31,095 nucleotides of DNA from the IMG/VR virus record IMGVR_UViG_3300013093_000176, positions 1 to 31,095 of that record, one strand, 5' to 3'. Of the stretch, positions 6,902-29,406 are shown piece after piece (position 1 is the first letter of the stretch; each line of letters begins with the position of its first letter). The position numbers and the translations under genes are program-made. This DNA comes from a virus. Below the pieces are notes generated by a model that worked only from the letters and a program-made list of their open reading frames with translations, did not search any database and was not told the DNA's origin.

Positions 6902-7336
6902 ATGGTACAAAAGAATCTCACAATTAAACCTGGCAATATCAAAGCCCAAACTACGGTTAAATCTAGTCAATTTTACAAAGGTTTTAGTTCTATTGATGAA
7001 AATGCAATATCACCTCGCCTGTATGATTATGATGTTGTTAAACAAGATTTACTTAATCAACTAAACACTCGCAAAGGCGAAAGAGTTATGAATCCTGGGT
7101 TTGGTACAATTATATGGGATCTAATTTACGAACCCTTGACACCTAATATAAAACAAGCAATCGCAACCGATATTGATAGAATTTTAGCCTCTGAGCCTAG
7201 ATTAATTCCTACACAAGTTAACATTGTTGAGCAAAATTATGGGTTCTTACTTGAACTTACCGTCAACTATGCCAATACAGATCTTAGCGAACAAATTAAA
7301 CTAGCATTTGATCGCAATGTTGGATTGATGGCTTAA
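6902..7336 (+). CDS. 25: Baseplate wedge subunit gp25 (GPW/gp25 family)
   Basis: 144 residues. The core NTRKGERVMNPGFGTIIWDLIYEP (residues 55-78; the key residues are RKGER, PGFGT, W72 and EP) is followed by an EPR triplet at 98-100 and a beta-rich end (VNIVEQNYGFLLELTVNY). These are defining features of the gp25/GpW family, also seen in type VI TssE. gp25 bridges the wedge (gp6) to the first sheath ring, and its EPR motif takes part in the interdomain contact that triggers the sheath. The family is usually 110-140 residues, so this is full length. About 25 extra residues lead the N-terminus. It lies eight bases after the gp5 gene; the spacer (ATAATACT) shows no ribosome binding site. Order gp5-gp25-gp6 is common in T4-like marine phages. 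Confidence 0.92.
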   Translation: MVQKNLTIKPGNIKAQTTVKSSQFYKGFSSIDENAISPRLYDYDVVKQDLLNQLNTRKGERVMNPGFGTIIWDLIYEPLTPNIKQAIATDIDRILASEPRLIPTQVNIVEQNYGFLLELTVNYANTDLSEQIKLAFDRNVGLMA

Positions 7337-7386
7337 AACTACCTGGTTTATAGTCGTAATAAATACGCTATAAACGGTACTTGCTT
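7337..7386 (+). promoter_or_regulatory. Bulged 16-bp hairpin in the gp25-gp6 gap
   Basis: The largest gap in the + strand gene cluster is nearly filled by an inverted repeat. TACC (7340-7343) pairs with GGTA (7376-7379). GTTTATAG (7346-7353) pairs with CTATAAAC (7368-7375). CGTA (7355-7358) pairs with TACG (7364-7367), leaving the loop ATAAA (7359-7363). Bulges are TG (7344-7345) and T (7354), both on the 5' side. No U-run follows, so it is not a standard terminator. AATAAATA (7358-7365) differs from the T4 late-promoter box TATAAATA at one position. No Shine-Dalgarno is seen before the gp6 start at 7387. Likely a regulatory or mRNA-processing structure; its role is inferred only from its form and location. 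Confidence 0.5.
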
Positions 7387-10300
7387 ATGATTCCATCAAC
7401 AAATTCAAAATTATTAGTTGCCGAAGATTGGACAAAAATATATCAATCTTTCAACAATTCTGATTTTAAGTCTTATGATTTCGAAACTCTAAGACGAACA
7501 ATGATTCAGTATCTTCGAGAAAATTATCCCGAAGATTTCAATGATTACACTGATTCTAGTGAGTATATTGCTCTAATAGATTTAATTGCCTACCTCGGAC
7601 AGAATCTAAGTTTTCGTGTAGATCTAAATGCCCGTGAGAATTTTTTAGAAACTGCCCAACGTAGAGATAGTATTCTTCGTCTTGCACAGTTGATTAATTA
7701 CAATGCCAAACGTTGTGTTCCTGCAAGTGGATTGCTAAAAATTACAAGTGTTAGTACTACAGATAATGTGTTTGATGGATCAGGTATTAATCTAGCAAAT
7801 ACTACAGTATCATGGAATGACGCTTCAAATGTCAACTGGTATTCACAATTCTTAACAGTATTAAATTCCGCTATGCCTACTGATAGTGTATTTGGGAAAC
7901 CCTACAATAGGGCTACTATTGCAGGAATACCTACTGAAAGTTATCAGATAGCAAGTGCAACTACCGATGTTCCTATTTTTAATTTTTCAAAATCTATAAA
8001 TGGTGTAACAACAGATTTTGAAATTGTTAGTAGCACGTTTGCTAATAAAACTTACATATACGAATCTGCACCTTTACCTGGTGCTAATTTTAATTTCTTA
8101 TTTAGAAATGATTCAAAAGGTAATGCTAGCCCAAATACAGGATTCTTTGCGTTCTTTAAACAAGGAACATTAAGTTCTAATCCATTCTCAGTATCAACTC
8201 CTGTACAAAATGAAATTATCGGAGTAGATGTTACTAATATTAATGACTCTGACATATGGTTATGGCAGTTAGATGCAAATGGAAATTATAGTGTTAACTG
8301 GACTAAAGTTGATGCACTTACTGGAAATAATGTAATATATAACAATGTAGCAAACAATGAGCAAAATATTTTTGCTGTAACTACACGAGTGCAAGATCAG
8401 ATTGATTTAAATTTTGCCGATGGTGCATTTGGTAATTTACCTAAAGGTAATTTTGTTTTGTATTTTAGGCAAAGCAATGGACTAACTTATTCGATTACTC
8501 CTGAACAAATTAACGGTATACAAGTACGAATTCCTTATTACAATCAGTACGGTCAAAGAAATACATTGTCGTTGACAATGTCTTTACAGTATACAGTAAG
8601 CAATGCCGCAGGATCTGAAACTGATGCTAATATTAAACTAAAAGCACCACAGGCATACTACACACAAAACCGTATGGTTACTGCTGAGGACTATAATATT
8701 AGTCCGTTAACTGCGGGTACAGATATTCTTAAGGTAAAGAGTGTCAACAGAATTTCAAGCGGTATTTCTAAATTCTATGAATTAAGCGATATTAGTGGAA
8801 AATATAGTTCTGTAAACATATATGGTAGTGATGGTGCATTATATAAAGATACTCAATTACAGCAATTTAACTTTACATTCTCGGGTCGAAATGATATCTA
8901 TGGAGTGTTATTAAATCAAGTCACTCCGCTATTACAGTCAAATGATTTAAAACACTTTTATTTTGATCAATATCGAAGAAGTTCAAACTATTCCAATTTA
9001 GTAGGCGGTGCAAAAATTCTTCCTACCAATATTTCTTGGAAGCGATTAACTGGTACAACTAATGAAACAACCGGATATTTTCAAAGTATAGTTCCTAGTG
9101 GAAATGCTTTACCAACAGGATATTTTAGTTCTTCATTTTTAAAATATGCAATTAATGGAGCATTGGTTAAATTTACGGCTCCTACAGGGAAATACTTTTT
9201 ACCAACAGGTAAATTAACATCGGTTCAAGATCAAACTACAAAAAATTATTTTTGGTCTTCTTTGGTTATTACTATCGGCGATGGATATAACAGCGGTGCT
9301 GGTGTACTATCAGATGGAACTGGTCCTATTACAATGACTGGATATATTCCATCAGATGCAGTAGTATCTGAAATTATTCCACCTTTAGTAACTACTCTAA
9401 CTCCTGCTTTGCAATCAGAAATAATTAATCTGTGTTTAGGTTATAGAAATTTTGGTTTACGATTTTCTAGAGATGATAATGCTTGGTATGTTATTAATGA
9501 TACTGATTTAGATTTGATCAATCCTTTTACATTAATATATACAGGTGACACAACAAACACAAATAAAGATTCTAGTTGGACTATAGCATTTGTATGGAAC
9601 GGTTTTGACTATGAAATTCGTTATAGATATACCGAATATATATTTGAAAGTGTACAAGAAACTGCTTTCAATTATGATGTAACTACTAAGAATTTTGATT
9701 TTGTTTCTAATACTATTATTAAAGATAAAATTACTGTGCTAGGTATTAACAGTCAAAACACATCGACAAATAGTTTATCTTCGGATTTTATATGGCAACT
9801 AGATAGTAACGTTGTCGAGTCAGACGGATATATTGAACCTAAGAAAGTAAAAATATCTTTCTACGATGCCTTAGACGACGGTAATATTGATGACCCCGAT
9901 AGTTTTGATGTAATTGTTCAGCCTGATAGCATTAGTCCTCAAACAACTTACAATGATAAATTTGTTTATTTTCAATATGATCCTAGCCTTACAAGATATT
10001 CTATTGTAGACAGCAATTTATTTTTAGCATTTCCGTCAGAAGCATCTGTTCCTACTACCCAACTGATCGAAGGGCAACTATATTATTTTTATGATCAAAA
10101 TATAGATATTGTAGCAAGTTATTCTGCATCAACTCCGACACCTTTTACGTTAGAGCCTTTGTATTTTGCAAAAATAGGACGTAAAAATATCAAGTTTCAT
10201 TATCAACACAACAGTGCAGATGATAGAAGAATTGATCCAGGTAAAACAAATTTAATTGATATCTTTATGTTAACTGGAACATATGATACTGCATATAGAT

Positions 10301-10830
10301 CTTGGTTGGCTACTGGCACTGGATCAGAACCATTGACTCCCACAAGTTCTTCACTAGAAGAAAATTATAGTGCAGTCCTTGAGCCAATTAAATCTATCAG
10401 TGATCAACTAATATATCAGTCAGTAAAATATAAACCATTATTTGGTTCCCAAGCACCTTCTAATCTACAAGCAATTTTTAAAGTAGTTAAAAATACAACT
10501 AGATCCGTTTCAGACAACGATATTAAATCAAGAGTAATTTCTGGAATAAATGAATTCTTTAAACTTGATTATTGGGACTTTGGTAAAACATTTTATTTTA
10601 GTGAATTAGCAACTTATATTATGAATTTGTTAACACCTGATATTACTAATTTTATTATTGTTCCTAGATCCGATATTGCATTCGGAAGCCTTTATGAAAT
10701 AGCATGCCAGTCAAATGAAATTTTTGTTAATGGGGCTACAATCAACGATATTGAAATTATAAATGCAATTACAGCATCTCAAATCAAGACAACATCAACT
10801 ACAATAACTAGTTCTGTAGGAGTATATTAA
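7387..10830 (+). CDS. 6: Baseplate wedge subunit gp6-like (gpJ family), enlarged
   Basis: 1147 residues from the ATG at 7387. TTG at 7381 would add only two residues and has no better signal. The N-terminus carries the gp6/baseplate J pattern: LRRTMIQYLRENYPEDFNDY, SSEYIALIDLIAYLGQNLSF, NARENFLETAQRRDSILRLAQ. Residues about 338-356 have LNFADGAFGNLPKGNF, and about 426 has QNRMVTAEDYN, both typical of J-like proteins. The last 150 residues (AIFKVVKNTTRSVSDNDIKSR, then DFGKTFYFSELATYIMNL, ending FVNGATINDIEI) match the family C-terminus. In T4, gp6 dimers form the continuous ring that holds the wedges together and respond to contact. T4 gp6 is 660 residues; the extra length is mostly a central, Tyr/Ser-rich insertion (roughly residues 450-950). 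It follows gp25 by 50 bases and overlaps the next gene by one base. Confidence 0.85.
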   Translation: MIPSTNSKLLVAEDWTKIYQSFNNSDFKSYDFETLRRTMIQYLRENYPEDFNDYTDSSEYIALIDLIAYLGQNLSFRVDLNARENFLETAQRRDSILRLAQLINYNAKRCVPASGLLKITSVSTTDNVFDGSGINLANTTVSWNDASNVNWYSQFLTVLNSAMPTDSVFGKPYNRATIAGIPTESYQIASATTDVPIFNFSKSINGVTTDFEIVSSTFANKTYIYESAPLPGANFNFLFRNDSKGNASPNTGFFAFFKQGTLSSNPFSVSTPVQNEIIGVDVTNINDSDIWLWQLDANGNYSVNWTKVDALTGNNVIYNNVANNEQNIFAVTTRVQDQIDLNFADGAFGNLPKGNFVLYFRQSNGLTYSITPEQINGIQVRIPYYNQYGQRNTLSLTMSLQYTVSNAAGSETDANIKLKAPQAYYTQNRMVTAEDYNISPLTAGTDILKVKSVNRISSGISKFYELSDISGKYSSVNIYGSDGALYKDTQLQQFNFTFSGRNDIYGVLLNQVTPLLQSNDLKHFYFDQYRRSSNYSNLVGGAKILPTNISWKRLTGTTNETTGYFQSIVPSGNALPTGYFSSSFLKYAINGALVKFTAPTGKYFLPTGKLTSVQDQTTKNYFWSSLVITIGDGYNSGAGVLSDGTGPITMTGYIPSDAVVSEIIPPLVTTLTPALQSEIINLCLGYRNFGLRFSRDDNAWYVINDTDLDLINPFTLIYTGDTTNTNKDSSWTIAFVWNGFDYEIRYRYTEYIFESVQETAFNYDVTTKNFDFVSNTIIKDKITVLGINSQNTSTNSLSSDFIWQLDSNVVESDGYIEPKKVKISFYDALDDGNIDDPDSFDVIVQPDSISPQTTYNDKFVYFQYDPSLTRYSIVDSNLFLAFPSEASVPTTQLIEGQLYYFYDQNIDIVASYSASTPTPFTLEPLYFAKIGRKNIKFHYQHNSADDRRIDPGKTNLIDIFMLTGTYDTAYRSWLATGTGSEPLTPTSSSLEENYSAVLEPIKSISDQLIYQSVKYKPLFGSQAPSNLQAIFKVVKNTTRSVSDNDIKSRVISGINEFFKLDYWDFGKTFYFSELATYIMNLLTPDITNFIIVPRSDIAFGSLYEIACQSNEIFVNGATINDIEIINAITASQIKTTSTTITSSVGVY
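10818..10822 (+). promoter_or_regulatory. Ribosome binding site for the gp7-like giant gene
   Basis: AGGAG lies seven bases before the ATG at 10830, inside the last codons of gp6. It supports that start and the TAATG overlap with the gp6 stop, so the giant gene probably is translated partly by re-initiation after gp6. Confidence 0.7.
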
Positions 10831-13800
10831 TGCCGGCCAATGTTTCAAAAGTTTCGCATATTGGAAGTACATCGACAAATAGAAGATCTGTTGATTTACT
10901 TCCAGATATTTTTAGAACTGATAAAAACGCTAAATTTTTAGCAGGAACACTTGACCAATATATACAACCAGCACAGATTGAAAGAATTAATGCTTGGTTT
11001 GGTAGTAAAAATACTCCAACATATAATCCTGCAACAGACAATTATATAGGAGCAACTTCTCAATTAAGAGAAGCATATCAGGTAGAACCATCTCTTGTAG
11101 TAACTGATGCTAATTTAAACACTAAAGAAGTGTTAGCATATGATGATTTAATTAACAAATTAAATGTACAAGGTGCTTCAACAACAAGATTAGATACACT
11201 TTTTAATCCTGAATTTTATTCTTATGATCCTAACATTGATTGGGATAAACTTGTTAACTTTGAGAAATATTATTGGATGCCATACGGTCCTGATGTCATA
11301 TCAGTGACAGGACAAATTAAAGCCACAGTGAGCACCTACTCGGTAACTGATACTCCAGACGGCAATTATTTCTTATTCACTCCAGATGGATTAACACCTT
11401 CTCCTCAATTAACATTGTTTAGAGGTGTTACTTATATTTTTAATATCAATACTTCTAAACTATTTTGGTTTAAGACACAGCGTGTAGCAGGCACTGAGTC
11501 TCCATATCGTGTGCTTGACACAAATGGTATTAAAAATGGACAAATTATTTTTACTGTAGACGAAAATACTCCTAAGATTCTTTATTATGTTGCACAAGAT
11601 AATGAGCAAAATGGCGGAGAGATTATTATAGAGTCTATAGAAGACAACAGCAATATTGATGTTGTAAATGATGTCTTAGGAAAGCAAACATATACCTCAG
11701 GAAATAATATTCAACTATCTAATGGTATGCGTATTATGTTTGAGGGCAATGTAACGCCTGTTGAATATCAAAATAAAGAATTTTATGTAGAAGGTGTCGG
11801 TGATGCTATTCGATTGGTTGATGTATCAACATTATCTGTACCTGAGAAATTTATTAGCACATTAGATGAAAATTTTGATGCAACGCCGTTTGATGATTAT
11901 CCATTTGATACATTTATTAATGCTCCATTAACTCCAGAATATGTAACTATTAATCGATCTAGTCTAGATCGAAATCCTTGGAGTCGTTATAATAGATGGT
12001 TCCATGAAGATGTAATCATTGCTTCTGCTACATACAACAACAGAACACCTGTGTTGCCTGTAGAAAATAGAGCAAAAAGACCTATTGTAGAATTTACGCC
12101 TGATCTTCAATTGTTTAATTTTGGTTCAGTGGCTGTTGACAATGTTCAACACATTGACACTACAACAACAGACGTATTCAATGCCATTGAAGGACAATTA
12201 GGGTTTTATGTTGATGGTGTAGAAATTGCCAATGGCGATAGAATTATTTTTACAGCAGATATAGACAATTATGTTACTAGTAGAATTTGGCAAGTTACTT
12301 TTGCTCAAATAAATGGAACATTAAAAATTGCTCTTGTTGAAGCAACAGACAGTCCTCCTTGGACTGGAGCCAATGTTATTATTACACAAGGCACAACTTA
12401 CAAAGGAACAAATTGGTGGTTTAATGGCACAAATTGGGTCTATGGCCAGCAAAAATCTGTGTTAAATCAAGCACCTCGTTTTGATGTATTCGACAGTGAT
12501 CAAAATAGTTTGTTTGATACGACTAGTAATTTCCAAGGAACTAAAGTATTTGGATACGGAATTAGTACAGGTACAACTGATACAATTTTAGGATTTCCTT
12601 TAAAATATCAAAATATTGCAGACCAAGCATTTTATCTGTTTGAAAATTATTTCATGCAGGATCAAACTACAGTAGTCTCCGGAAATACAACAACATATAT
12701 CCCTATATATAAAAACTTTTTAAAGAAGAATACTACTACAGATTATACTTTTTTAAATGTTTGGAAAGAAGCAGAAACTTATACTATTCCTGTTTTACAA
12801 TCAGTAGTACCTACTACTGATACAACATCTATAGAAGTTACTGGAGTTAATTATCCTGCCTATAATAACATTACATTACAAGTTTTTGTTAACAATGTAA
12901 AATATTTTGAAGGTATTGATTATACTCGTTATCCTGATAAATCAAGATTATATGTTAATTTTACAAATACCATTACTGCAAATGATCATGTATTATTTAA
13001 AATATATGGAGATGCAGTTCCTAATGAGAACGGATACTATGAAGTAAGTCCTACTTGGGCAAATAATCCCTTAAATGGAGTTATTCAAGAATTTACATTA
13101 TCTGAATTAACTGATCACTTGAAGTCAATGGCAGACAGGCATCCTAATTTTTCAGGAAGTTATCTAGGAAAAAATAATAGTAGAGATCTTCCTAATTTGT
13201 CATCGTATGGTACACGATTAATTAGAAATAAAAATCCTTTGGCATTTGCCGGGTATTTTGTAACAGACAACGATCATAATATAATAGATGCTGTACAAAC
13301 AGTAGAGCGTCACTATAATCAATTTAAATTAAATTTTATTTCTCATGCAACTGCTCTTAAGGGAATTTATGATCTTGTGCAGGCTGTTGATATTATTATG
13401 CACAATATCAACGTGGTCAAAGATCGAAAATCTCAGTATTATTATACCGATATGATTGCCTATGGAACTGATGTTACTACACATAATGTAACAGTTACTG
13501 ATCCTAGAAATACACAATACGGTCTTGATAGTATTTTTATTCCTAGCACAAACAATCCTAGAACAATTTATGTTTATCATACTCCTATTGATACAGGCAT
13601 GAAATATCAATTAGTGATTGATAACGATTATGAATTTGATCAATATGAATCTACAGTAACAATAAAACGACCTTTAACAAAAGGTGATATTATCACAGTT
13701 AGTGACTATCCGAGTACTGATGGAAGTTTTATCCCTCCTACTCCTACAAAATTAGGGTTGTATCCAAAATATATTCCAGACATTTACTATGATAATTCTT

Positions 13801-16800
13801 ATTCTGGAGATCCTCAGTTAGTAATCAAAGGGCATGATGGTAGCATTATGCTTGCTTTTAACGACTATAGAGACAACATTATATTAGAACTAGAACGTAG
13901 AATTTATAATAATATTAAAGTTAATTATAATCCTGATCTATTAAACATTCATGGAATAATTCCTGGAAGATTTAGAAGTACTAAAATTGGTAAATCAACA
14001 GTTAATTCTATTCTAACAGGTAACTTTTTAAGATGGAATAATTTTTACGGATTTGATTTTGAAAGTAATGATACATATTCTGATTCTCCTAGAACATGGA
14101 ATTTTAGATCAGCCAATGATCCTGCTACATTAATTCCTCTAGTAGGAAATCACAGAGGAATTTATTCATATTATTTTGATACAACTACACCTCACATGAC
14201 TCCTTGGGAAATGTTAGGATTTAGTATAATGCCATATTGGTGGATTAGTACCTATGGTCCTGCTCCTTATACAAGTGGTAATGAAGTGTTATGGACTGAT
14301 TTAGAAAATGGATATGTAAGAGATCCTGCAAATCCAAGAGTTAATCCATTATTTGTAAGAACTGGACTATCTCAAATTATTCCAGTTGATGCAAGCGGAA
14401 ATTTATTAGATCCAGCCTCGTCAGGAATTGCACAAAATGTTGATGTAAACAAATTAGGTGATGATTGGGAATTTGGAGATCAAGGTCCTGTTGAAACAGC
14501 CTGGAGGCGTAGTAGCCATTATCCTTATGCCGTTCAGTTACTAATGATTCTTGCAGATCCATCGAGTTATGCAAGTTTATTATTTGACACAAGCAGAATG
14601 CAAAAGAGTCTAGCAGGTCAGTATATCTATACTGAATCTGGAGATTTTTTAAAGCCAAGCGACTTAGTTATATATGGTGATGAAACAAGTACACCTGTAA
14701 GAGCCGCTGGATATAGTCCTATGTTAGTTGAGACAGGGAAAGTTAAAAATAAAACTTATATTCAAGATCTAAAAACAGATCTATCGAATGTAAACATGAA
14801 ATTGCTGACAAAAGTTGGCGGATTTGTTAGCCAGGATAAACTAGAAATCATTATTGACTCAGTTAATCCTGCCACTACAAATCCGGGCGTAGCATTAAGC
14901 AACGAAGATTACGAAATTTTCTTAGATCAAGGACATCCTGTTGAAAGTTTAGGTATATCGGGTATGATAATTCAAAAGACACCCGACGGATATGCTATTA
15001 GGGGTTATGATAATATAGAACCATACTTTACCTGTTTTACTCCTATTTTAGGTTTAGCGGGGGTTTCTGTTGGTGCAAAAAGTGAATCGTATGTTAATTG
15101 GACTGCAAGTAGTCCAACTGGTACAGGATTAACTAGTGCAGACCTATCTAATGCTGTATCTGCTAATACAGGTTATATATTTTATAAAGCAGGTCAGGTA
15201 GTTTTATACAATGGAAAATATTACAGGGCTAAAATAGGACATACTAGTGGAACAACTTTTAATCTTAATAACTTTACTCCTCTACCTGGATTACCTACAG
15301 TTGGCGGAGTATCTGTTGTAAAAGCCGCAAGATTTGATACAACTGAAATTAAGATTCCTTATGGAAAAATACTTCCTACAATACAAGATGTCTACAATGT
15401 AATAGTAGGGTACGGAGCATGGCTAGAAAGTAAAGGCGCTATATTTGATGAGTTTGTTGCCGACCTTAGTGAAGTAATTAATTGGGATTTTACAGCCAAA
15501 GAATTTTTATACTGGGCAAGTCAAGGATGGTCAACTAACAGTGTTATAACATTAAGTCCTTTTGCTAATCAAATTCAATATCAAAATGATTATGCTATGG
15601 TTGATGACTTAGGCAGTAGTTATTATGAATATAGTGTAATCAAGGCTGATGGAAAACCATTAAAAGAAATTTATCTAAATGTAATGCGCCAAGACGGTGT
15701 AATAACAGTTAGAACAAGAAATACAAACGATGGAATTTATTTTATTAGATTTAACTGTGTTCAGAAAGAACATGTTTTAATTTTTAATAATAGAAGTTTG
15801 TTCAATGACGTAATATATGATGTAGAATCTGGATATAGTCAACGCAGATTAAAATTAAATGGGTTAAGAACATCAAATTGGAACGGGTCATTATATAGTC
15901 CTGGATTTATCTATGACGAAGCAATTATAAATGATTGGGCAGAATACACAGACTATCGTCCAGGAGACATTGTTCGATATAGTGGTAATTATTATTCGGC
16001 TGTTGCGGCTATAGATGGTACATCTACATTTGATTATACTTTATGGCAGTCATTAGATGAGAAACCGGTATCAAGGTTGTTGCCTAACTTTGATTATAAG
16101 ATTGGTCAATTCCAAGATTTCTATAGTCTTGATATAGATAATTTTGATTCTAATCAACAGGCTTTAGCACAGCATTTAATTGGGTATACTCTCAGACCAT
16201 ATCTAGATAATGTATTCATTAACCCCATTAGTCAATATAAATTCTACCAAGGATTTATCAGAGAAAAAGGTACAAAGAATACAATTAGTAAATTGGCCAA
16301 AGCCAGCAAACAAACATTAGGTAGTTATATTGACTACTTTGAAGAATGGGCGTTTAGAATAGGAGAGTTTGGATCTTATACAACTGATAATAGTTTAGAA
16401 ATTAATCTAGATGAAAATACATTTAAAGAAAATTCTCAAGTAATTAGTTTTGTTGATACTATACCTGCTCAACCTAAGCAACCTAGAATTTATAAAACAC
16501 CTAATGATTTAATAATTTCTCCTACAAATTATTCTTCAACTCCGTTTACTACTACATCTACAAAATATCAAGATGTATTTGAGTTGCCTTACGCAGGTTA
16601 TGTAAGGCTTGACGATGTTACTGCTACTGCATTTAACAAATCCTCATTAACTGATGTTGCTAATAACAGAGGTATCAATGACGGCGATACTGTATGGTTA
16701 GGATTTACAGAAAGTCTTGATTGGGAAGTATATAGACATACAATGTTAAGCGCCAAGGCAAATGATGCTTCTATACTAGTACAAGGATCTACCTTATTAA

Positions 16801-19800
16801 TAACTACAGATCTTAGCCACGGATTGTCTAAGAATGACCTAGTCAATATTACACAATTTGATCCTCAAATTAACGGAGTATATCAAGTTCTTGAAGTAAT
16901 GTCTAATGATCAATTTGTTATTAAGACAACTTTAACAACGTTACCTACTAAATTTAATCCTGGCTTAGGTGTTATGTTTAAATTTGTATCGGTAAGATTC
17001 CGAGAAGGTCCTGATCAATTAGCAGATTTTTCAATGTTGAGTCAATTGACTAACGGAGAAAATGTATGGATTGACAATGACGGAACTGGCATTTGGACAG
17101 TGTTACAAAAACAGCAGGCATATACAGGTGTAGATTATAATCCTATGTCTGGCGGCTCCGTTAGAAATCAAGAATTTTCTGCAGATATTGCAGTAGATCC
17201 TACTGGAAACAAAATAATTGTAGGTGCTCCTAATTTTTATAATGGTACTCCTAACAACTATAATTTACGACCAGGTGTGTACGGTAAAGTCTATGCTCTG
17301 AAAAGAGAAAACACCAGCACCGTAGGACTGGTTAAACTAAGTGAAATTACTTTAAACATTGATGCTACTCATCAATTTAATGATTCTACTGTAGATCCTA
17401 GATTTGGATCAGCAGTTGTATTTGACAGTGATAACAATATTGTTATTGCAGGCGCCCCAAATGCTAGCGGTGTAAAATTTGTTTCAAATTCACATGCTTT
17501 CTATGATGTAACTACATCTGCATCTACGTCGACTACTCGTAATAAAGGTATGATTAAGTTGACCACTGTAAATTACGATGGTAAATTTACAGCAACACAA
17601 CATTTTGCATTTACGAGTTATGAAAATATTCAAGATGCTTACTTTGGATCTGATTTATATTTAGGTAATATATCTAAAACAAATAAACTATTAGCAGTAT
17701 CTGCTCCGGGTAATACAGGCTCGGTATATTGGTCGACATATACTATTGGTATAAATTCTGGTATAGTATCAATTACTACAGGTACTTCTTCGCAGAAAAA
17801 ATTATCACCAATTTTATTACCTTCAGTAGCAGGTGACAAATTTGGTACAAGTATTACTGGTGATGATACAGCAACTATCATGGCTGTAGGTGCTCCTGGA
17901 TTATATGGTGGCTATGGCGGAGTTTATATCTTTACATATTCTCCATCAACAAATCAATTTACTAATACTGATTTAATATCTTACAATGATTCTGATATAG
18001 GGTTAATGGATGCCAATATTGGATTTGGTGAAAAAGTTTTAATAGATAAGACTGGTTACTATTTGTTTATTGGTGCATCTAGAGTCAGCACTAATGATTA
18101 TAAGACTGGACAAGTTTACGTATACACACGTAATGGAAACACATTTAACTATTTCCAAACATTAGAATGTCCATTCGAAGGGTCAATTAATAATTTTGGA
18201 TTCGAGTTTGCTATAAATCCTAATTCAAATTCGTTATACATATCAAGTCTGAAAGAACATGTAACTCCTGACATAACATTCGATACCTATAGTATTAGTT
18301 TAGGAAATTATATTAACGACCAAACAAGTCCTCCTAATTTAACGGCTACTACTTTTGATGGAAAATCAACTACATTCCAATCTAAGTCTAAATTAGGTAC
18401 AGGATCTGTATATACATTTGAAAGATTAGATTCTAAATTCTACTACGGACAAGAACTAAAGAAAGTAAATCCAGCAGACAATCAAGGATTTGCTAATGCG
18501 TTAGCGGCTACTAACAATACTGTATTTGTAGGTGCGCCGGGTACTAATGTTCCTTCTGAAGTAGGAATATTACACTTGTTTGATCATAGTCAACCTACAT
18601 GGAAAAGACTGCGTGTAGAAGATAATCTTGTTGATCTTGATAAGATTAGAACTATAACAACAATTGATACTGACAAACAAGATATTCTTGATTATATTGA
18701 AATTTTTGATCCATTGAAAGGACGTATACCCGGATATGCTGATCAAGAAATAAAATATAAAACAGCATTTGATCCAGCAGTTTATTCTATCGGAGTTCCC
18801 GGAGTGAATGTAGATAGTGGTACAAACTGGATCGACGAGCATGTTGGTGAACTATGGTGGGATTTGAGCTCAGTTAAGTATATATGGTACGAACAAGGAA
18901 ATCTTGATTTTAGAAAAAATAGTTGGGGAAATTTATTCCCAGGATGTACTATTGATATCTATGAATGGGTATCTAGTACAAACTTACCTAGTCAGTGGAG
19001 TGCAATAGCAGATACTAATGCAGGTCTATCACAGGGAATAAGCGGACAGCCTAAATTTCCTTCAAATGCGGTTATTAGTATTAAACAAGTGTATAACCCT
19101 ACAACAAATGCACTAACAAACATATATTATTATTGGGTAAAAAATAAGATAACAATTCCTGCAATTGGCGGAAGATCCATGAGTGCTCTTGATGTAGCAC
19201 AATTGATTGCAAATCCAAAAGCACAAGGAATGAAATATATTTCTATGTTATCTTCTAGTGCATTAGCATTGACCAATCTAAAGACTGATCTAATTGGTAC
19301 AAACATCAATCTAAACATTGATATGGATTTGATCAACAATCAAATTAACAAACATACAGAGTGGTTATTACTACAAGAAGGCAATGCAGAAAGTTTACCT
19401 AACACACTATTGGCCAAAAAAGTAAAAGATAGTTTATTAGGCAGAGATAGTTTAGGTAATCCTGTACCCGATAGTTCACTAACAGAGAGAACTCGTTATG
19501 GAGTTGGTGTACGTCCTCGTCAAACATTATTTAAAAATCGCTTTGATGCTTTGAGAGTTTATACAGAATATGTAAATTCGATTTTAATAAATCTTAATAT
19601 TGTAAATTATGTTAATTTAGATCATTTTACATCAAGTGAAGTCTATGCTACTCCTTCTCAAGCAGAATACGATGTTGTAGTTGAGTCTGCACTGGCTAGA
19701 GATGTAACTGTGGTTACACGTAACTTATTACTTGCGTCATTATCTGTCAGTTTATTGTATGGTCGTATAACAGGAGTTTCTATTATCAATACAGGGTATG

Positions 19801-22800
19801 GATATGGAACTTTATACCCTGTTGAGTATGATACTAATAATCTTCCTATAGTGTGGGCAGGACCTACAGTTGAAGTTATAGGTAACGGTACCGGCGCTGA
19901 AATTGTTACGTTTATAAACAGTGCTGGGCAAGTTATTAAAACTGAAATTAAAAATTCAGGCAAAAACTATACCGCAGTTCCGACCGCAGTAGTAAGACCA
20001 TTTACTGTATTAGTCCAGGCAGATGAAACAGTGAACAATCGTTGGAGTTACTATACTTGGAATTATTCAACTAAAACATATCTAAGAACAAAAACTCAGA
20101 GTTGGAATACACCTGAATACTGGCAATATGTTGATTGGAAAGATCCTACATACAATAGAACAAAAGACATTTCAAGAACTATTAATAGTACCTATCAATT
20201 ATCTTATGTTGAAGATGTCCTCCCGGGAAGTTATGTAAAAATTAATAATCCAGGAGATGGCCGTTATGTAATTCTTAGAAAAACAAATGGTACAGTTGGA
20301 ACATTTAATAATTCCTTTGATTTGATATACCAACAAAACGGTACAATTCAAATTGATGATATGATTTGGGATAATCAATTTGGTTTTGATTATGTTGTTG
20401 GCTTTGACCAATTAACATTTGATCAAAAGCCTGATGTTGAAACTGAAAATATTATCAATGGTGTTAATGCAATATTCAAAAATGACTATCAAGTTTATGC
20501 CAATAAGTTATTCTTTAAATTAGTAAAGTTTGCATTAACTGAACAGAAATTTATTGATTGGGCATTCAAAACATCATTTATATCTGTTGTTAATAACGCA
20601 GGTGCTCTTGATCAGCGTCCTACATATAGCCTTAATAATGAGACATATTATGAGGATTATATCAATGAAACCAAGCCTTATCATACAAAAATTCGCAATT
20701 TCCAAGCAAATTATACCGCCACAGATTTTACACAGTCAGTACTAACAGATTTCGACACACCGGCTGTTTATAATACCTTAACACAGAAATTTGTTCCTGT
20801 GCAATTGGGTAATCCATTGACATTACAATCACCTTGGAAAGAGTGGTATAATAACTACAAATATCATGTAGATAGTGTTGAAATTTATGACGGTGGATCA
20901 GGATATATCTACGCACCCCAAGTAGTGTTTAGCCCGGCGCCCGGCGATAGCGGATCGGGCGCCGCCGGTGAGGCTTACATCAGCCAAGGTAAGGTAACAC
21001 AGATTGTTATAACAAATCCAGGATCCGGGTACACACTTACTCCGATTATGAATTTGTTAGGCGGCGGCCCGTCTGATCTTACTTCAGCACGATTTGGTAT
21101 AAGAATGAGTAATGGTTTGGTTAGATCTCAAACTATTACTATGAAATTTGATCGTGTGTCGGGCTACAATGAAATACCATCAGCCGCATCTGAAGATACT
21201 TTCCGAGCAGATGGATATACAGATACCTATAGATTAACTTGGACGCCAATGGCAGAAAAATCATTAACAACTGTAACCGTTAATGGTATTAAACAACTTG
21301 CTGATGCTTATAGTATTACGGTGTCTACTGAAAAATTCAACGGATATACAAAGAGTTATGGAGAAATTAAGTTAGCATCTCCTCCTGCATATACAGCAAC
21401 AGTGATTGTTAATTATATTAAAGACGTAGGTTTGTACCATGCCGTAGATCGTATACGTGATTACTACTCTCCTACTTCTGGTATGCCAGGTAATACAGCA
21501 ACATTGTTAATGGCAGGATTAGAATATCCCGGAGTTACAATAGATACAATACCGTTATTATCATCAACAGGTTTTGATTCTACTCCATTTGGTTCAAACA
21601 ACTGGGATGACTACTTACCTGAAGTTGGGTTATATTCAACAACTGGTAGTCATTCAAGTAGTGTGTTTACTTTAAATTATGTTCCTCAGATAGGAAACAC
21701 CTTAACAGTTTATGTTAACAATGTTCGTATCTACGGAACAGGAACTGTTAGTTCTTCAACACATTTACAATTGATTAATGGCTTAATACAACCAGACGGT
21801 TACACAAATACAGTTGACATTTACACAACAACAACAGGAATTGTATCTTTTAGATTAGCGTCTAGTGATGGTTCTTTGCCTATCATTGATCCTGATTTAG
21901 ATACATATATTTCTGGTGGTAATAGTTTTACTACAATATCTCAACCAGGAGTTGCAGACAATCCGTCACCACTACTAGATGATATTGCTATTGATGGTGA
22001 CAGTCTAATATCTCGATATAATAGTTATGGACCTGAAGAAAACTTACCAGGCAGAGTATCTGAAAGTTTAGGTATTAGTGTATATACACAACCAGCAGTT
22101 GGATCGGCATTAACTGTTTTGAGATCCTATGTAGCAAATAGCAATACAAATGTATATTCAATAGGCACAACTCCTCCTAACGCTGATTCAGTTGAAGTCT
22201 TGTTAAACAACACAATTTTATCAAATTATACAATTGATTATGCTAAACAACATATTGTGTTACCACAACCTGTAGTTGGAATACTGTCTATAAAAACAAT
22301 AAGTGTGGGCGGCACAAATTTATTAGAGCAAAAAACAATTGTTGCGACTACCGCTACAACAATAGTCGATATGGCTCCTCAATTGACTACTGTTCAGGAT
22401 TGGTATATTACATTGAATGGACAAAAGTTAGTTAAAGATACTGATTTTAGATTAACTGCTTATAATTTAAGAACACGTATTACATTGACTACACCGTTAC
22501 AAGTTAACGATGTTTTACAAATTTGGTTATTTGCGGCACCTATGAAAGCATTTAGTGAAGTCCGTGCTCAAACAATTACAGCACAGCCAAACACTACATC
22601 TTGGGTGTTAACCTATCCTCCAGAAGACATACAACCTTATCACACACAGGTTATTGTTGAGCAAGATGGTAAACGTTTAGCACCACCGCCTACAGTATAT
22701 TATGTAGCCGATGGTCAAACAACCAGTTATTCATTAAACAAAAATATACCTTGGGGAACGGCTGTTCCTTCAAGAAAGACTGTACAAGTTTATGTAAATG

Positions 22801-24056
22801 GTATTCCTAAAAAATATGGAAATGATTTCGAACTTGTTCAAAATGAAAACAGAATTAATTTCTTGCCAAACATTGTTAAAACTGGCGATGTGATTGCTAT
22901 CTGTGTATTGTTGTCACATCAATATACAGTATCAGACGGTAACTTGTATGTAACTGGTTTAGTCAATACTGACACAACCAGCACAATTAAAGTATATTCA
23001 TTTACAAATGATGATGCAAGTTTTATAAGACGAGAAACATTTACTGGTGCTAATGGAAATACATTTGTTCTAAGTCGTAGTGTATTAGGAATTGAATATC
23101 TATGGGTTGATTTAAATGGTATGCCGTTAATGCGAGGATTTGACTTTGATTTAATAGCACCTAACCAAATCAAATTAAATGATAGAACAATTATTGGACC
23201 ATCAGACTCGATTGTAGTAACCAGTGTAAGCAACATTGTAGAAAATAATGTTACACTAGGCTATAGAGTATTCTTAGATAACTTAGGTCGTGTATCTTAC
23301 AAGAGATTAAGTAAAGTAAATTCTACACAATTAGTATCGACATTAACCTCTACTGCTACAACAATTGATGTTGTAAATGCCAGTGTTCTTACACAACCTA
23401 ATGCTCCTAGACTGTTACCAGGAGTTATTTTAATCAACGGTGAAAGAATTCAATTCTATAAAGTTGAAGGAAATACCCTATCTCAATTGGTGCGTGGAAG
23501 TTTAGGTACCGGTATCCGTGATAGTTATCCAGTAGGAACAACTGTACTTGATCAAGGTTCAGATCAAACTTTAAATGTTGAAGATAGACAAATATCTTGG
23601 ATTACTGTTATTACAGGAACATCGGCATTAAGTTATGATATATCTAACATGAGTGTTCTTAATGCAACTACAAATACTACGTATGATGTATATTATCAAG
23701 GGCGTTTATTAAGAAGACCTAGTGATTCTGTTACTGCTACTGATATTTCTCTTGCTTATGATAGCAACGAAATTACAGCGGAAGGAACGGCATCAAATTA
23801 TAATTTACTCGGCGAGTATAGCATAATTATTGCAAACACAGGAACTACTTTAGTGTTAAATACTGCGTCAGTAACACCTGGTGCTAGATTACAAGTAATT
23901 TCTAGGTATGGACAGAGCATGTATGCTCAAATTCAACCTGGAACAACACATAATATTCCGGTAGATCCGATGCATAGCAATGTTACTCCGCAGGTAGAAT
24001 TCCTATCAAGATCGCCATCTGCGCTACCAGATAAATATTACTATGGACAACAATGA
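10830..24056 (+). CDS. 7: Giant gp7-like baseplate wedge protein, 4408 residues, multidomain
   Basis: A single open frame of 13.2 kb. Residues 23-157 (LLPDIFRTDKNAKFLAGT; FNPEFYSYDPNIDWDKLVN; EKYYWMPYGPD) resemble the gp7 wedge initiator of marine T4-like phages. Further gp7-type stretches lie near 1010-1050 (FNDYRDNIILELERRIYNN), 1123-1150 (TPWEMLGFSIMPYWW), 2672-2930 (ELWWDLSSVKYIWYEQGNL) and 3231-3290 (ALTEQKFIDWAFKTSFI; KPYHTKIRNF). Between these are inserted modules: two chitin-binding-like YxxGDxVxYxGxYY motifs (about 1447-1490, 1701-1740), a seven-repeat FG-GAP propeller (2115-2587), two GSGY repeats (2982-3057, 3350-3415), and repeats of the form VxVNGxxLxxGxDF (about 682, then 3480-4310). 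T4 gp7 is 1032 residues. The segments suggest a wedge backbone with added surface domains, which would enlarge the baseplate and may contact host or fibres. Whether it is processed is unknown. Stop is TGA; next gene overlaps by 14 bases. Confidence 0.75.
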   Translation: MPANVSKVSHIGSTSTNRRSVDLLPDIFRTDKNAKFLAGTLDQYIQPAQIERINAWFGSKNTPTYNPATDNYIGATSQLREAYQVEPSLVVTDANLNTKEVLAYDDLINKLNVQGASTTRLDTLFNPEFYSYDPNIDWDKLVNFEKYYWMPYGPDVISVTGQIKATVSTYSVTDTPDGNYFLFTPDGLTPSPQLTLFRGVTYIFNINTSKLFWFKTQRVAGTESPYRVLDTNGIKNGQIIFTVDENTPKILYYVAQDNEQNGGEIIIESIEDNSNIDVVNDVLGKQTYTSGNNIQLSNGMRIMFEGNVTPVEYQNKEFYVEGVGDAIRLVDVSTLSVPEKFISTLDENFDATPFDDYPFDTFINAPLTPEYVTINRSSLDRNPWSRYNRWFHEDVIIASATYNNRTPVLPVENRAKRPIVEFTPDLQLFNFGSVAVDNVQHIDTTTTDVFNAIEGQLGFYVDGVEIANGDRIIFTADIDNYVTSRIWQVTFAQINGTLKIALVEATDSPPWTGANVIITQGTTYKGTNWWFNGTNWVYGQQKSVLNQAPRFDVFDSDQNSLFDTTSNFQGTKVFGYGISTGTTDTILGFPLKYQNIADQAFYLFENYFMQDQTTVVSGNTTTYIPIYKNFLKKNTTTDYTFLNVWKEAETYTIPVLQSVVPTTDTTSIEVTGVNYPAYNNITLQVFVNNVKYFEGIDYTRYPDKSRLYVNFTNTITANDHVLFKIYGDAVPNENGYYEVSPTWANNPLNGVIQEFTLSELTDHLKSMADRHPNFSGSYLGKNNSRDLPNLSSYGTRLIRNKNPLAFAGYFVTDNDHNIIDAVQTVERHYNQFKLNFISHATALKGIYDLVQAVDIIMHNINVVKDRKSQYYYTDMIAYGTDVTTHNVTVTDPRNTQYGLDSIFIPSTNNPRTIYVYHTPIDTGMKYQLVIDNDYEFDQYESTVTIKRPLTKGDIITVSDYPSTDGSFIPPTPTKLGLYPKYIPDIYYDNSYSGDPQLVIKGHDGSIMLAFNDYRDNIILELERRIYNNIKVNYNPDLLNIHGIIPGRFRSTKIGKSTVNSILTGNFLRWNNFYGFDFESNDTYSDSPRTWNFRSANDPATLIPLVGNHRGIYSYYFDTTTPHMTPWEMLGFSIMPYWWISTYGPAPYTSGNEVLWTDLENGYVRDPANPRVNPLFVRTGLSQIIPVDASGNLLDPASSGIAQNVDVNKLGDDWEFGDQGPVETAWRRSSHYPYAVQLLMILADPSSYASLLFDTSRMQKSLAGQYIYTESGDFLKPSDLVIYGDETSTPVRAAGYSPMLVETGKVKNKTYIQDLKTDLSNVNMKLLTKVGGFVSQDKLEIIIDSVNPATTNPGVALSNEDYEIFLDQGHPVESLGISGMIIQKTPDGYAIRGYDNIEPYFTCFTPILGLAGVSVGAKSESYVNWTASSPTGTGLTSADLSNAVSANTGYIFYKAGQVVLYNGKYYRAKIGHTSGTTFNLNNFTPLPGLPTVGGVSVVKAARFDTTEIKIPYGKILPTIQDVYNVIVGYGAWLESKGAIFDEFVADLSEVINWDFTAKEFLYWASQGWSTNSVITLSPFANQIQYQNDYAMVDDLGSSYYEYSVIKADGKPLKEIYLNVMRQDGVITVRTRNTNDGIYFIRFNCVQKEHVLIFNNRSLFNDVIYDVESGYSQRRLKLNGLRTSNWNGSLYSPGFIYDEAIINDWAEYTDYRPGDIVRYSGNYYSAVAAIDGTSTFDYTLWQSLDEKPVSRLLPNFDYKIGQFQDFYSLDIDNFDSNQQALAQHLIGYTLRPYLDNVFINPISQYKFYQGFIREKGTKNTISKLAKASKQTLGSYIDYFEEWAFRIGEFGSYTTDNSLEINLDENTFKENSQVISFVDTIPAQPKQPRIYKTPNDLIISPTNYSSTPFTTTSTKYQDVFELPYAGYVRLDDVTATAFNKSSLTDVANNRGINDGDTVWLGFTESLDWEVYRHTMLSAKANDASILVQGSTLLITTDLSHGLSKNDLVNITQFDPQINGVYQVLEVMSNDQFVIKTTLTTLPTKFNPGLGVMFKFVSVRFREGPDQLADFSMLSQLTNGENVWIDNDGTGIWTVLQKQQAYTGVDYNPMSGGSVRNQEFSADIAVDPTGNKIIVGAPNFYNGTPNNYNLRPGVYGKVYALKRENTSTVGLVKLSEITLNIDATHQFNDSTVDPRFGSAVVFDSDNNIVIAGAPNASGVKFVSNSHAFYDVTTSASTSTTRNKGMIKLTTVNYDGKFTATQHFAFTSYENIQDAYFGSDLYLGNISKTNKLLAVSAPGNTGSVYWSTYTIGINSGIVSITTGTSSQKKLSPILLPSVAGDKFGTSITGDDTATIMAVGAPGLYGGYGGVYIFTYSPSTNQFTNTDLISYNDSDIGLMDANIGFGEKVLIDKTGYYLFIGASRVSTNDYKTGQVYVYTRNGNTFNYFQTLECPFEGSINNFGFEFAINPNSNSLYISSLKEHVTPDITFDTYSISLGNYINDQTSPPNLTATTFDGKSTTFQSKSKLGTGSVYTFERLDSKFYYGQELKKVNPADNQGFANALAATNNTVFVGAPGTNVPSEVGILHLFDHSQPTWKRLRVEDNLVDLDKIRTITTIDTDKQDILDYIEIFDPLKGRIPGYADQEIKYKTAFDPAVYSIGVPGVNVDSGTNWIDEHVGELWWDLSSVKYIWYEQGNLDFRKNSWGNLFPGCTIDIYEWVSSTNLPSQWSAIADTNAGLSQGISGQPKFPSNAVISIKQVYNPTTNALTNIYYYWVKNKITIPAIGGRSMSALDVAQLIANPKAQGMKYISMLSSSALALTNLKTDLIGTNINLNIDMDLINNQINKHTEWLLLQEGNAESLPNTLLAKKVKDSLLGRDSLGNPVPDSSLTERTRYGVGVRPRQTLFKNRFDALRVYTEYVNSILINLNIVNYVNLDHFTSSEVYATPSQAEYDVVVESALARDVTVVTRNLLLASLSVSLLYGRITGVSIINTGYGYGTLYPVEYDTNNLPIVWAGPTVEVIGNGTGAEIVTFINSAGQVIKTEIKNSGKNYTAVPTAVVRPFTVLVQADETVNNRWSYYTWNYSTKTYLRTKTQSWNTPEYWQYVDWKDPTYNRTKDISRTINSTYQLSYVEDVLPGSYVKINNPGDGRYVILRKTNGTVGTFNNSFDLIYQQNGTIQIDDMIWDNQFGFDYVVGFDQLTFDQKPDVETENIINGVNAIFKNDYQVYANKLFFKLVKFALTEQKFIDWAFKTSFISVVNNAGALDQRPTYSLNNETYYEDYINETKPYHTKIRNFQANYTATDFTQSVLTDFDTPAVYNTLTQKFVPVQLGNPLTLQSPWKEWYNNYKYHVDSVEIYDGGSGYIYAPQVVFSPAPGDSGSGAAGEAYISQGKVTQIVITNPGSGYTLTPIMNLLGGGPSDLTSARFGIRMSNGLVRSQTITMKFDRVSGYNEIPSAASEDTFRADGYTDTYRLTWTPMAEKSLTTVTVNGIKQLADAYSITVSTEKFNGYTKSYGEIKLASPPAYTATVIVNYIKDVGLYHAVDRIRDYYSPTSGMPGNTATLLMAGLEYPGVTIDTIPLLSSTGFDSTPFGSNNWDDYLPEVGLYSTTGSHSSSVFTLNYVPQIGNTLTVYVNNVRIYGTGTVSSSTHLQLINGLIQPDGYTNTVDIYTTTTGIVSFRLASSDGSLPIIDPDLDTYISGGNSFTTISQPGVADNPSPLLDDIAIDGDSLISRYNSYGPEENLPGRVSESLGISVYTQPAVGSALTVLRSYVANSNTNVYSIGTTPPNADSVEVLLNNTILSNYTIDYAKQHIVLPQPVVGILSIKTISVGGTNLLEQKTIVATTATTIVDMAPQLTTVQDWYITLNGQKLVKDTDFRLTAYNLRTRITLTTPLQVNDVLQIWLFAAPMKAFSEVRAQTITAQPNTTSWVLTYPPEDIQPYHTQVIVEQDGKRLAPPPTVYYVADGQTTSYSLNKNIPWGTAVPSRKTVQVYVNGIPKKYGNDFELVQNENRINFLPNIVKTGDVIAICVLLSHQYTVSDGNLYVTGLVNTDTTSTIKVYSFTNDDASFIRRETFTGANGNTFVLSRSVLGIEYLWVDLNGMPLMRGFDFDLIAPNQIKLNDRTIIGPSDSIVVTSVSNIVENNVTLGYRVFLDNLGRVSYKRLSKVNSTQLVSTLTSTATTIDVVNASVLTQPNAPRLLPGVILINGERIQFYKVEGNTLSQLVRGSLGTGIRDSYPVGTTVLDQGSDQTLNVEDRQISWITVITGTSALSYDISNMSVLNATTNTTYDVYYQGRLLRRPSDSVTATDISLAYDSNEITAEGTASNYNLLGEYSIIIANTGTTLVLNTASVTPGARLQVISRYGQSMYAQIQPGTTHNIPVDPMHSNVTPQVEFLSRSPSALPDKYYYGQQ
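17172..18590 (+). other. FG-GAP (integrin-alpha-type) seven-bladed propeller inside the giant protein
   Basis: Seven consecutive repeats can be read, starting at residues near 2115, 2192, 2271, 2338, 2399, 2456 and 2554. Each has an FGxx opening (repeats 1 and 7 are variants: FSADIAVD and FANALAAT), then a strand with a polar loop, then a VGAP-type end (IIVGAPN, VIAGAPN, LAVSAPG, MAVGAPG, FIGASR, YISSLKE, VFVGAPG). Most repeats are followed by a GxVYxF-like strand (GKVYALK, GSVYWST, GGVYIFT, GQVYVYT, GSVYTFE). Seven units match the number of blades in an integrin-alpha propeller. The segment sits between gp7-like parts, so it seems an insertion. Binding function is not shown. Confidence 0.8.
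19773..19999 (+). repeat. First GxGYxxxP repeat module of the giant protein
   Basis: Residues 2982-3057 have the pattern INTGYGYGTLYPV, then VEVIGNGTGAEIV, then IKNSGKNYTAVPTAVV. The same order recurs at 20877-21072. In phage structural proteins such units are repeated beta modules; no function can be assigned here. Confidence 0.6.
20877..21072 (+). repeat. Second GxGYxxxP repeat module of the giant protein
   Basis: Residues 3350-3415 read VEIYDGGSGYIYAPQVVF, then GSGAAGEAYISQGKV, then ITNPGSGYTLTPIMNLLGGG. It is a diverged copy of the module at 19773-19999, about 300 residues apart, and contains an unusually GC-rich patch with an inverted repeat. Confidence 0.65.
20935..20964. repeat. GC-rich perfect 8-bp inverted repeat inside the giant gene
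   Basis: CGGCGCCC (20935-20942) and GGGCGCCG (20957-20964) are perfect inverted copies around a 14-base loop. The arms contain only G and C, in a gene that is otherwise strongly AT-rich. The coding frame is kept (the region encodes SPAPGDSGSGAAGEA). It would form a stable RNA hairpin. Confidence 0.7.
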
Positions 24057-24711: not shown

Positions 24712-26679
24712 ATGTCATATTCAATAAATTATTCGGATCCTACTAAATCTGCTATTGTAGTCGATGACTACAGTATTACAGGTGCTAGTAGCAATGCAGA
24801 TACTACATTGAGTGTTGGATTTATTCGCAAAAATGCATCTGATTATGCCGCTACACTTAGCGGAAATTTTTTACATCTATTAGAAAATTTTGCCAGCCCT
24901 GATTTTCCTACTAATCCTGTTCAAGGTCAATTGTGGTTTGATTCTGCAAATTCTTTATTAAAAATAAACATGCCTCAAGCAGGTGGAACAAATTGGCGTC
25001 CTGCAAGTGGTATTTGGTCATCAAGTACTCAACCGGATGGTATGGCAGGTGACTTATGGGTTGATACATCTACAGGACAACTGTTTATTAACACAGACGG
25101 TAGTGCTAGTTGGACATTAATTGGACCTGCTTTTAGTAGCAGTTTAAAGACTGGTAGTTATCCAGATATTATCAATGACAATTTTGGTACTCCGCACAAA
25201 ATTATTAAAAATTATATTGATGATACAGTCGTTGAAATTATCAGTAGTGAAAGTTTTGTTCCACAAACTAAAATAAATGGATTTACATCGCTACTTCCTG
25301 GTATTAACCTTACATCAAATAATAGTGCATTAATTAATGCAACTTCTTATTCTACAAAAAATTTAGCAGTAACAAGTCCGTTTACTGCTAATATATCTGC
25401 TAATAATTTTGTAAGAAATGATATCGATAATACTATCAATGCCGCGCTTACGGTTCTAAATGGAGTTATTGTAGGATCTAATTCTGCGTTTAAATTAGTA
25501 ATCAATCCTACATCACAAAAAGAATCACAGATCATTAATGCTTATAACGGTGGTAAGATCACTTTTGTATTAAACAACAATAACTATTTGACTACATTGA
25601 TGAATATCAACGGATTTAGTCAAAACGTGGGTATTGCTTTAGGGTCACGTGAACCTAATGCATCGGCGGCACTTGAAGTTGGCGGCAATGCTATTATTAA
25701 TGGTGCATTGGCAGCGACTATTACTACAGTTACTTCTTTGAATGTAACAGGAAACACCGCAGTTTCTGGAAGCCAATCAATAGGTGGAAATTTATCAGTA
25801 ACTGGATTGGTAAGTATAAGTTCTGCAACTGTTAGTACAGATGCGGCAAGATTTACTGTTATTACTGCTACCAATTATTTCTCTGGAAATTTACAGGGAA
25901 CAGCAAGTTTAGCAAACGGACTAACTGGAGTTACAACCTGGCAATTAACTGATCAATTGTCCGGAGTAACATCAAATTGGTCAGGAGTAGCAGGTAATGT
26001 AACATTTGATGCAAAACTAACACCTAATGCTGTTACAAGCCAAACAGTTTCTACACTATCGTCTGCAACTGATTGGACTAATTTTTACAACACTGGAAAC
26101 ACATTTTCATTGCTTGGTGTTGCAACAAAAAATACTGCACCGACATCCTCACAATTAGTTCAAATTGAAAAAGAAAACTTCTTATCAGATATTATAGGAA
26201 AGTTAATTCCTACTGGAACTATTCTTCCTTGGGCAGGAGGAATTGATAATAATAATATTCCTTATAATAATCCAGATACTAATTATAGGGTTCCTGAAGG
26301 TTGGTTATATTGTGATGGTAGTGAAGTATCAGTTAATACCTATAACAATTTATTTCAAGTAATAGCATATACATACAATCCCCCTGGTGCATCGAGTACT
26401 TCTACTTTTGCACTTCCTGACTTACGGGGACGTAGTATTGTTGGTTATGATAATATGCACAATTATCTTGTTCAAACTTTACCGGCAGGCCGCATTCCGG
26501 GTGCAAATACTCCTGCATTTACTAACAACGGAGAATCGGCATTAGTTTCCGGCGGAACATCAACAGTATTTTTATCAACTGGCACAGTATCAACTGGCAC
26601 AGGCACAGTTGTTAACAATGCACAATCAGTTAATATCATGAATCCGTATCTGGCTATGAACTACATTATTAAGGTATAA
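24712..26679 (+). CDS. Tail fibre paralogue 1 with C-terminal phage tail collar domain
   Basis: 655 residues. The N-terminus has the cassette shared by all four fibre genes here: FLHLLENFASPDFPTNPVQG followed by QLWFDSANSLLKI (about residues 45-88), then a second GDLWVDTSTGQLFINTDGS unit. A further module (HKIIKNYIDDTVVEIISSES, then GFTSLLPGINL) is shared with the gene at 29407. The middle is a Ser/Thr/Asn-rich shaft. Residues about 495-655 form a tail collar domain: GTILPWAGG, VPEGWLYCDGSEVSVNTYNNLF and FALPDLRGRSIVGYD, as in T4 gp12 and many receptor-binding fibre tips. The protein probably forms a trimer anchored to the baseplate by its N-terminus, with the collar domain toward the host. 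The receptor is unknown. It follows the previous gene after three bases. Confidence 0.85.
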   Translation: MSYSINYSDPTKSAIVVDDYSITGASSNADTTLSVGFIRKNASDYAATLSGNFLHLLENFASPDFPTNPVQGQLWFDSANSLLKINMPQAGGTNWRPASGIWSSSTQPDGMAGDLWVDTSTGQLFINTDGSASWTLIGPAFSSSLKTGSYPDIINDNFGTPHKIIKNYIDDTVVEIISSESFVPQTKINGFTSLLPGINLTSNNSALINATSYSTKNLAVTSPFTANISANNFVRNDIDNTINAALTVLNGVIVGSNSAFKLVINPTSQKESQIINAYNGGKITFVLNNNNYLTTLMNINGFSQNVGIALGSREPNASAALEVGGNAIINGALAATITTVTSLNVTGNTAVSGSQSIGGNLSVTGLVSISSATVSTDAARFTVITATNYFSGNLQGTASLANGLTGVTTWQLTDQLSGVTSNWSGVAGNVTFDAKLTPNAVTSQTVSTLSSATDWTNFYNTGNTFSLLGVATKNTAPTSSQLVQIEKENFLSDIIGKLIPTGTILPWAGGIDNNNIPYNNPDTNYRVPEGWLYCDGSEVSVNTYNNLFQVIAYTYNPPGASSTSTFALPDLRGRSIVGYDNMHNYLVQTLPAGRIPGANTPAFTNNGESALVSGGTSTVFLSTGTVSTGTGTVVNNAQSVNIMNPYLAMNYIIKV

Positions 26680-26684
26680 CAAGA

Positions 26685-28628: not shown

Positions 28629-28630
28629 AC

Positions 28631-28634: not shown

Positions 28635-28641
28635 ATAATGG

Positions 28642-29403: not shown

Positions 29404-29406
29404 AAA

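Follow-up and report, generated by a model that had tools for sequence, protein, structure and literature searches.

A predicted seven-bladed, integrin-like propeller inserted in a giant baseplate protein of a probable jumbo phage

A baseplate gene cluster with a giant protein

The window, by which we mean the whole 31,095-base virus fragment analyzed here, encodes on its plus strand a hub/tail lysozyme, a gp25-like and a gp6-like protein, a giant ORF, and then fiber- and collar-like genes (Table 1). The giant protein matches phrog_10938, a virion structural protein family, over four stretches (E 0, 1,066 bits). Its homolog in PA5oct is annotated as seen by ESI-MS/MS, and its homolog in phage CBB, CBB_236, was detected in CBB virions (PMC5259590). 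Because several relatives are located on contigs of >200 kb, the source of the fragment, a contractile-tail phage, is probably a jumbo phage. Two CBM_5_12-like modules, which most relatives also have, lie in the core of the giant protein upstream of the propeller. The genes at 24712-30786 resemble tail-fiber, collar, and other structural proteins. Three consecutive ORFs among them (26685-28628, 28642-29403, and 29407-30786) have an N-terminal domain in common (phrog_14394/15511), and the last two also have a common C-terminal domain (phrog_22593/6427); the trio are putative tandem paralogs, structural or fiber genes.

The giant ORF lies directly 3′ of the gp6-like gene, as T4 gp7 follows gp6, and to this extent the term "gp7-like" used in the preliminary description holds. 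Sequence gives no support for placing the giant protein in the T4 gp7 family. T4 gp7 has 1,032 aa, and no part of the giant protein has profile similarity to it; 13 pieces of the giant protein compared with five gp7 sequences by hhalign gave probabilities of ≤3.5%, a comparison that a remote relation could escape. Since no sequence similarity to T4 gp7 was detected, "gp7" is a positional label, taken from gene order only.

Table 1. Genes, domains, and insertion-site features of the window (aa, residues of the giant protein)
Feature	Position	Strand	Basis or remark
gp5-like baseplate hub / tail lysozyme	4611..6893	+	phrog_13211, phrog_196
gp25-like baseplate wedge protein	6902..7336	+	phrog_43, phrog_261 (baseplate wedge subunit)
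gp6-like baseplate wedge protein	7381..10830	+	phrog_10646, phrog_219
Giant virion protein, 4,408 aa, at gp7 position	10830..24056	+	single ORF spanning propeller region
CBM_5_12-like module 1, aa 1443-1486	15156..15287	+	Pfam, 25.2 bits, slightly below 26.2 cut-off
CBM_5_12-like module 2, aa 1700-1744	15927..16061	+	Pfam
Slot N-part, aa 1850-2086	16377..17087	+	at least partly alignable in propeller-less relatives too
First strand of interrupted hairpin, GIWTVLQK	17088..17111	+	model strands and empty-site comparison
Inserted seven-bladed FG-GAP_2/integrin-like propeller (predicted), ~aa 2095-2589	17112..18596	+	boundaries from empty-site comparison
Blade 1, aa 2116-2174	17175..17351	+	
Blade 2, aa 2192-2262	17403..17615	+	long 2-3 loop
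Blade 3, aa 2272-2316	17643..17777	+	
Blade 4, aa 2338-2384	17841..17981	+	strongest Pfam FG-GAP_2 match
Blade 5, aa 2399-2446	18024..18167	+	
Blade 6, aa 2456-2543	18195..18458	+	2-3 loop of 50 residues at low confidence
Blade 7, strands 1-3, aa 2554-2585	18489..18584	+	outer strand is aa 2090-2094 or 2591-2596
Second strand of interrupted hairpin, WKRLRV	18600..18617	+	begins conserved downstream core; model strands and empty-site comparison
Conserved downstream core, aa 2591-2870	18600..19439	+	ELWWDLS at 18849-18869

Repeats and predicted fold of the propeller

The preliminary description had placed seven FG-GAP repeats at 17172-18590 (aa 2115-2587 of the giant protein) and read them as a complete propeller. 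The FG positions of the seven repeats fall at aa 2116, 2192, 2272, 2338, 2399, 2456, and 2554. In the window the repeats are degenerate: FG is strictly kept in blades 2-6 and A-P in blades 1-4 and in blade 7, with both halves present in blades 2-4 only. We retrieved 80 related loci with the downstream core as query and worked from an alignment (A1) of 32 homologous domains, in whose consensus the FG-GAP/Cage motif is clear. Because several of its repeats have lost FG or GAP, the excised window domain matches Pfam FG-GAP_2 (PF14312) only marginally (25.9 bits against a cut-off of 23, E 1.2e-5), and within the whole giant protein the score falls under the cut-off. The same model was matched by 29 of the 32 homologous domains (best E 1.1e-21) and, above the curated cut-off, by ten homologs scanned singly (scores up to 77 bits). 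When the 32-sequence profile was compared with PDB sequences, it found integrin alpha-4 (E 8.7e-14) and integrin alpha-M (E 3.1e-13). A single-sequence PDB search, an NCBIfam search, and a PHROGs search with the window's propeller returned nothing useful.

AlphaFold2 run on A1 gave a model (pLDDT 81, pTM 0.84) in which the predicted strands group as seven blades of four, the outer strand of blade 7 being supplied by one flanking hairpin strand; one loop of blade 6 was modeled without confidence. Integrin alpha chains made up all of the best 50 matches to the PDB both in Foldseek and in VIA, with VIA Z scores of up to 34.9 (best match, 376 residues at 4.2 Å). The model and these matches bear out a complete, seven-bladed predicted propeller. 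The blade count is taken from the model and from the structures that match it; a blade profile also agrees with seven but is circular, having been built from the same alignment. Chance or low-complexity repeats as the source of the pattern are ruled out by the FG-GAP_2 matches of the homologs, the integrin profile match, the model, and the Foldseek result. The location given earlier, directly before the ELWWDLS segment, was nearly right: the domain ends ~85 aa upstream of that motif (aa 2674).

In integrins, calcium sites stabilize the lower face of the propeller. Integrin-type propellers are characterized by a DxDxDG calcium-binding loop between strands 1 and 2 (PMC3192720, PMC8023676). We looked for calcium-loop residues in each repeat, as had been suggested, and found DxDxDG in 0 of the 7 blades of the window propeller; the more relaxed motif D-x-[DN]-x-[DN]-G occurs in 2 of the 32 homologs, in blade 6 only. 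A calcium-binding propeller was thus rejected for the window domain. Fold and profile both point to integrin alpha as the closest relative, but because the calcium-loop feature fails, we do not class the domain as a true integrin-type propeller; it is an FG-GAP_2-type, integrin-like one. It shares seven predicted four-stranded blades, FG-GAP repeats that are degenerate in the window, and a profile match (E 9e-14) with the integrin alpha propellers (alpha-M, 9t3y; alpha-4, 3v4p), and it differs from them in missing the DxDxDG loops, in lying within a phage virion protein, and in having neither beta subunit nor membrane anchor. Proteins of the PF14312 family, to which the above-cut-off matches of the window domain and ten homologs connect it, are secreted or stand-alone, whereas this propeller lies inside a baseplate protein.

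The insertion site and its history

Flank profiles in relatives delimit a conserved core up to ~aa 1849 and again from ~aa 2591, with a variable slot between them. The slot measures 741 aa in the window and 228-1,613 aa in relatives: 228-231 in RaK2-like phages, 256 in L157 and L173, 344 in PA5oct, 532 in SCTP-2, ~1,550 in Atu_ph07 and Phosso, and up to 1,613 in L076. In hhalign comparisons with the window clade (P 100 for both RaK2-like and L157-like proteins), the alignment to RaK2-like proteins ran to aa 2007 and resumed from 2592, with only scattered residues between, and that to L157 ran to aa 2105 and resumed from 2589; both left the propeller essentially unaligned. In L157, L173, SCTP-2, PA5oct, Atu_ph07, and Phosso, the propeller-less site is a compact W-x-V...W-x-x-x-R hairpin. 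This hairpin reads EGAWTVYRYLSGN-WLPYRQQEYKIDSS in L157, NRWAVYYFNSGK-WNLDYKEQDVIDCN in SCTP-2, and AKWKVKEFTKVINGDD-WNTIREETPMVDSS in Atu_ph07; in the window it reads TGIWTVLQKQQ, then the propeller, then PTWKRLRVEDNLVDLD. Because propeller-less homologs exist, several with a compact hairpin at the site, we read the propeller as a domain insertion that, by alignment, occupies the turn of a small beta-hairpin. The earlier proposal that it interrupts an otherwise conserved protein is upheld by the six compact hairpins and the conserved flanks.

The slots themselves are diverse. Those of Atu_ph07 and Phosso (L082 and L085) hold many copies of a repeat that is also found near aa 3346-3408 of the window protein. 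In L076/L077, the propeller blades are dispersed in the 1,613-aa slot by several big insertions, and L018 and L043 have large inserts after blade 3 and before blade 4.

A FastTree phylogeny was built from the cores of 110 non-redundant relatives (381 columns, without a true outgroup), including distant relatives from a second scan. Relatives with and without the insertion both exist: the propeller is present in 96 of the 110, which form one clade (support 0.98; one propeller clade also in an additional tree, support 0.995), and a single change explains the pattern. The 14 propeller-less relatives include RaK2, PA5oct, SCTP-2, Atu_ph07, and two metagenomic phages; presence in every homolog, which the preliminary description had named as the mark of an ancestral domain, is thereby rejected. 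Among cultured phages, tblastn found no instance of the insertion in the collection searched, and a search with the best FG-GAP homolog gave nothing useful.

The core phylogeny identifies the insertion as old and vertically inherited, not recent, and the propeller was probably gained once and inherited since. The reverse history, in which the common ancestor of the entire family already had the propeller and RaK2-, PA5oct-, SCTP-2-, Atu_ph07-, and L079-like lineages lost it, would agree with the large share of carriers (96/110), and parsimony alone gives no polarity to one change on a tree without a root. Loss, however, would have had to restore a short intact hairpin, and we regard it as improbable. 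Gain is favored because the lineages that lack the propeller are a varied set in which compact hairpins or unrelated inserts are found.

The variable face and the proposed role in host contact

In integrins, the ligand-binding face is that of the 2-3 and 4-1 loops, and some integrins carry an I domain inserted in a propeller loop of that face; our assignment of faces follows from strand order and this established knowledge. In the phage propellers, most strand 1-2 loops keep a constant length of ≤5 residues, and there is almost no length variation in the 1-2 and 3-4 loops. Of the 16 long outliers in A1, 15 fall in 2-3/4-1 loops and 1 in 1-2/3-4 loops, statistics that rest on one alignment of sequences with common ancestry. 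Some relatives have modules inserted in their 2-3/4-1 loops, in the manner of the I domain. CBM_5_12 matches occur in the slots of 10 of 26 distant and 2 of 32 nearer relatives, and also in those of L079 and L080, both without propeller. For L073, the alignment places CBM_5_12 segments in two 2-3 loops, those of blades 2 and 4; for L024, it places one in blade 2, in the 1-2 loop on the opposite face. These slot modules belong to relatives; the window propeller has none.

The propeller diverges faster than its surroundings. Among the nearest relatives, it is 25-50% identical compared with 50-77% for the downstream core, and against L001 it is 48% identical compared with 60% and 77% for the flanks. 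At the same time, dN/dS was 0.04-0.33 in all comparisons that could be scored, which indicates purifying selection and suggests that the propeller is selected to stay functional; no positive selection was seen, dN/dS being ≤0.33 wherever scorable. In the pairs L027/L029 and L119/L145, propeller dS was much less than half the dS of either flanking core. Because it lies below the dS of both cores, there is a hint that the propeller may have been exchanged by recombination in these pairs.

Propellers on phage baseplates or tips and stand-alone phage FG-GAP proteins are already known. PhiKZ gp131C (PDB 4GBF) is a seven-bladed propeller at the baseplate periphery, and for it, phi11 gp45, and PRD1 P2, whose propellers lie on phage tips or baseplates, host contact has been proposed or is thought to occur (PMC4901313, PMC6115969). 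Likened here by description, these are separate proteins or C-terminal domains, unlike the hairpin insertion of the window. Jumbo phage CBB, which encodes CBB_552 and other Kelch-propeller proteins, likewise has a propeller protein in its virion (PMC5259590), but one of the Kelch type and from a gene of its own, in contrast to an FG-GAP_2-type propeller inside the giant protein; CBB also encodes CBB_236, a RaK2-like form of that protein. S-TIM5 H6WG31 and the Atu_ph07 "hemagglutinin" A0A2L0UZX4 have the same fold as the window propeller but are separate proteins of ~400 aa, and the Atu_ph07 giant protein lacks the insertion. In the open-licence literature, we found no published report of an FG-GAP propeller inside a baseplate protein.

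On balance, we favor a role in which the propeller, inserted in a hairpin turn of the giant baseplate protein, is displayed and binds the host surface. Since the hairpin strands, as placed by alignment, enter and leave the propeller, the host protein's fold would be preserved and the propeller displayed on it. With one protein per wedge, as for T4 gp7, each virion would carry six propellers. Because the loops of the 2-3/4-1 face differ in length and can take up additional modules, we infer that early in adsorption this face may bind a protein or glycan on the host surface; alternatively, the propeller may help seat the baseplate on the envelope. The loop insertions, the relatives' CBMs, and faster divergence under purifying selection would fit an exposed binding module, and receptor contact is plausible on this circumstantial evidence, although fast divergence with purifying selection is also compatible with a structural spacer.

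Two other roles deserve weighing. The propeller might be an internal assembly platform that joins wedges or anchors the fiber proteins encoded downstream, without host contact: beta-propellers are general protein-binding platforms, the downstream neighbors look structural, the 1-2/3-4 loops hardly vary in length, and selection on the propeller is purifying. Yet related baseplates function without it, the strong length variation of the 2-3/4-1 face is atypical of a buried interface, and the propeller changes faster than the sequence on either side of it, so that we consider this role rather unlikely, though not implausible. Still less probable is a VCBS/tachylectin-type lectin or degraded enzyme in place of an integrin-like adhesin; integrin-like, VCBS, and tachylectin propellers do fall together in a single supercluster with lectins among its members (PMC8023676), but integrin alpha is nearest by both fold and sequence, and the VCBS/FG-GAP_3 model PF13517 has no match within the 31-kb record.

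The window thus offers a clear example from nature of an entire propeller of ~490 residues placed in a hairpin turn, with relatives whose site is free of it, and of an integrin-like adhesion fold within a structural baseplate protein. If host-surface binding holds, an adsorption module would be overlooked by host-range prediction from tail fibers alone, and it would sit in a clade unrepresented among the cultured phages searched. A broader and much more tentative reading is that a large, mostly uncultured jumbo-phage clade may build host binding into its baseplate, with several propellers per virion whose customizable exposed face would accept carbohydrate-binding and other modules and be exchanged by recombination.
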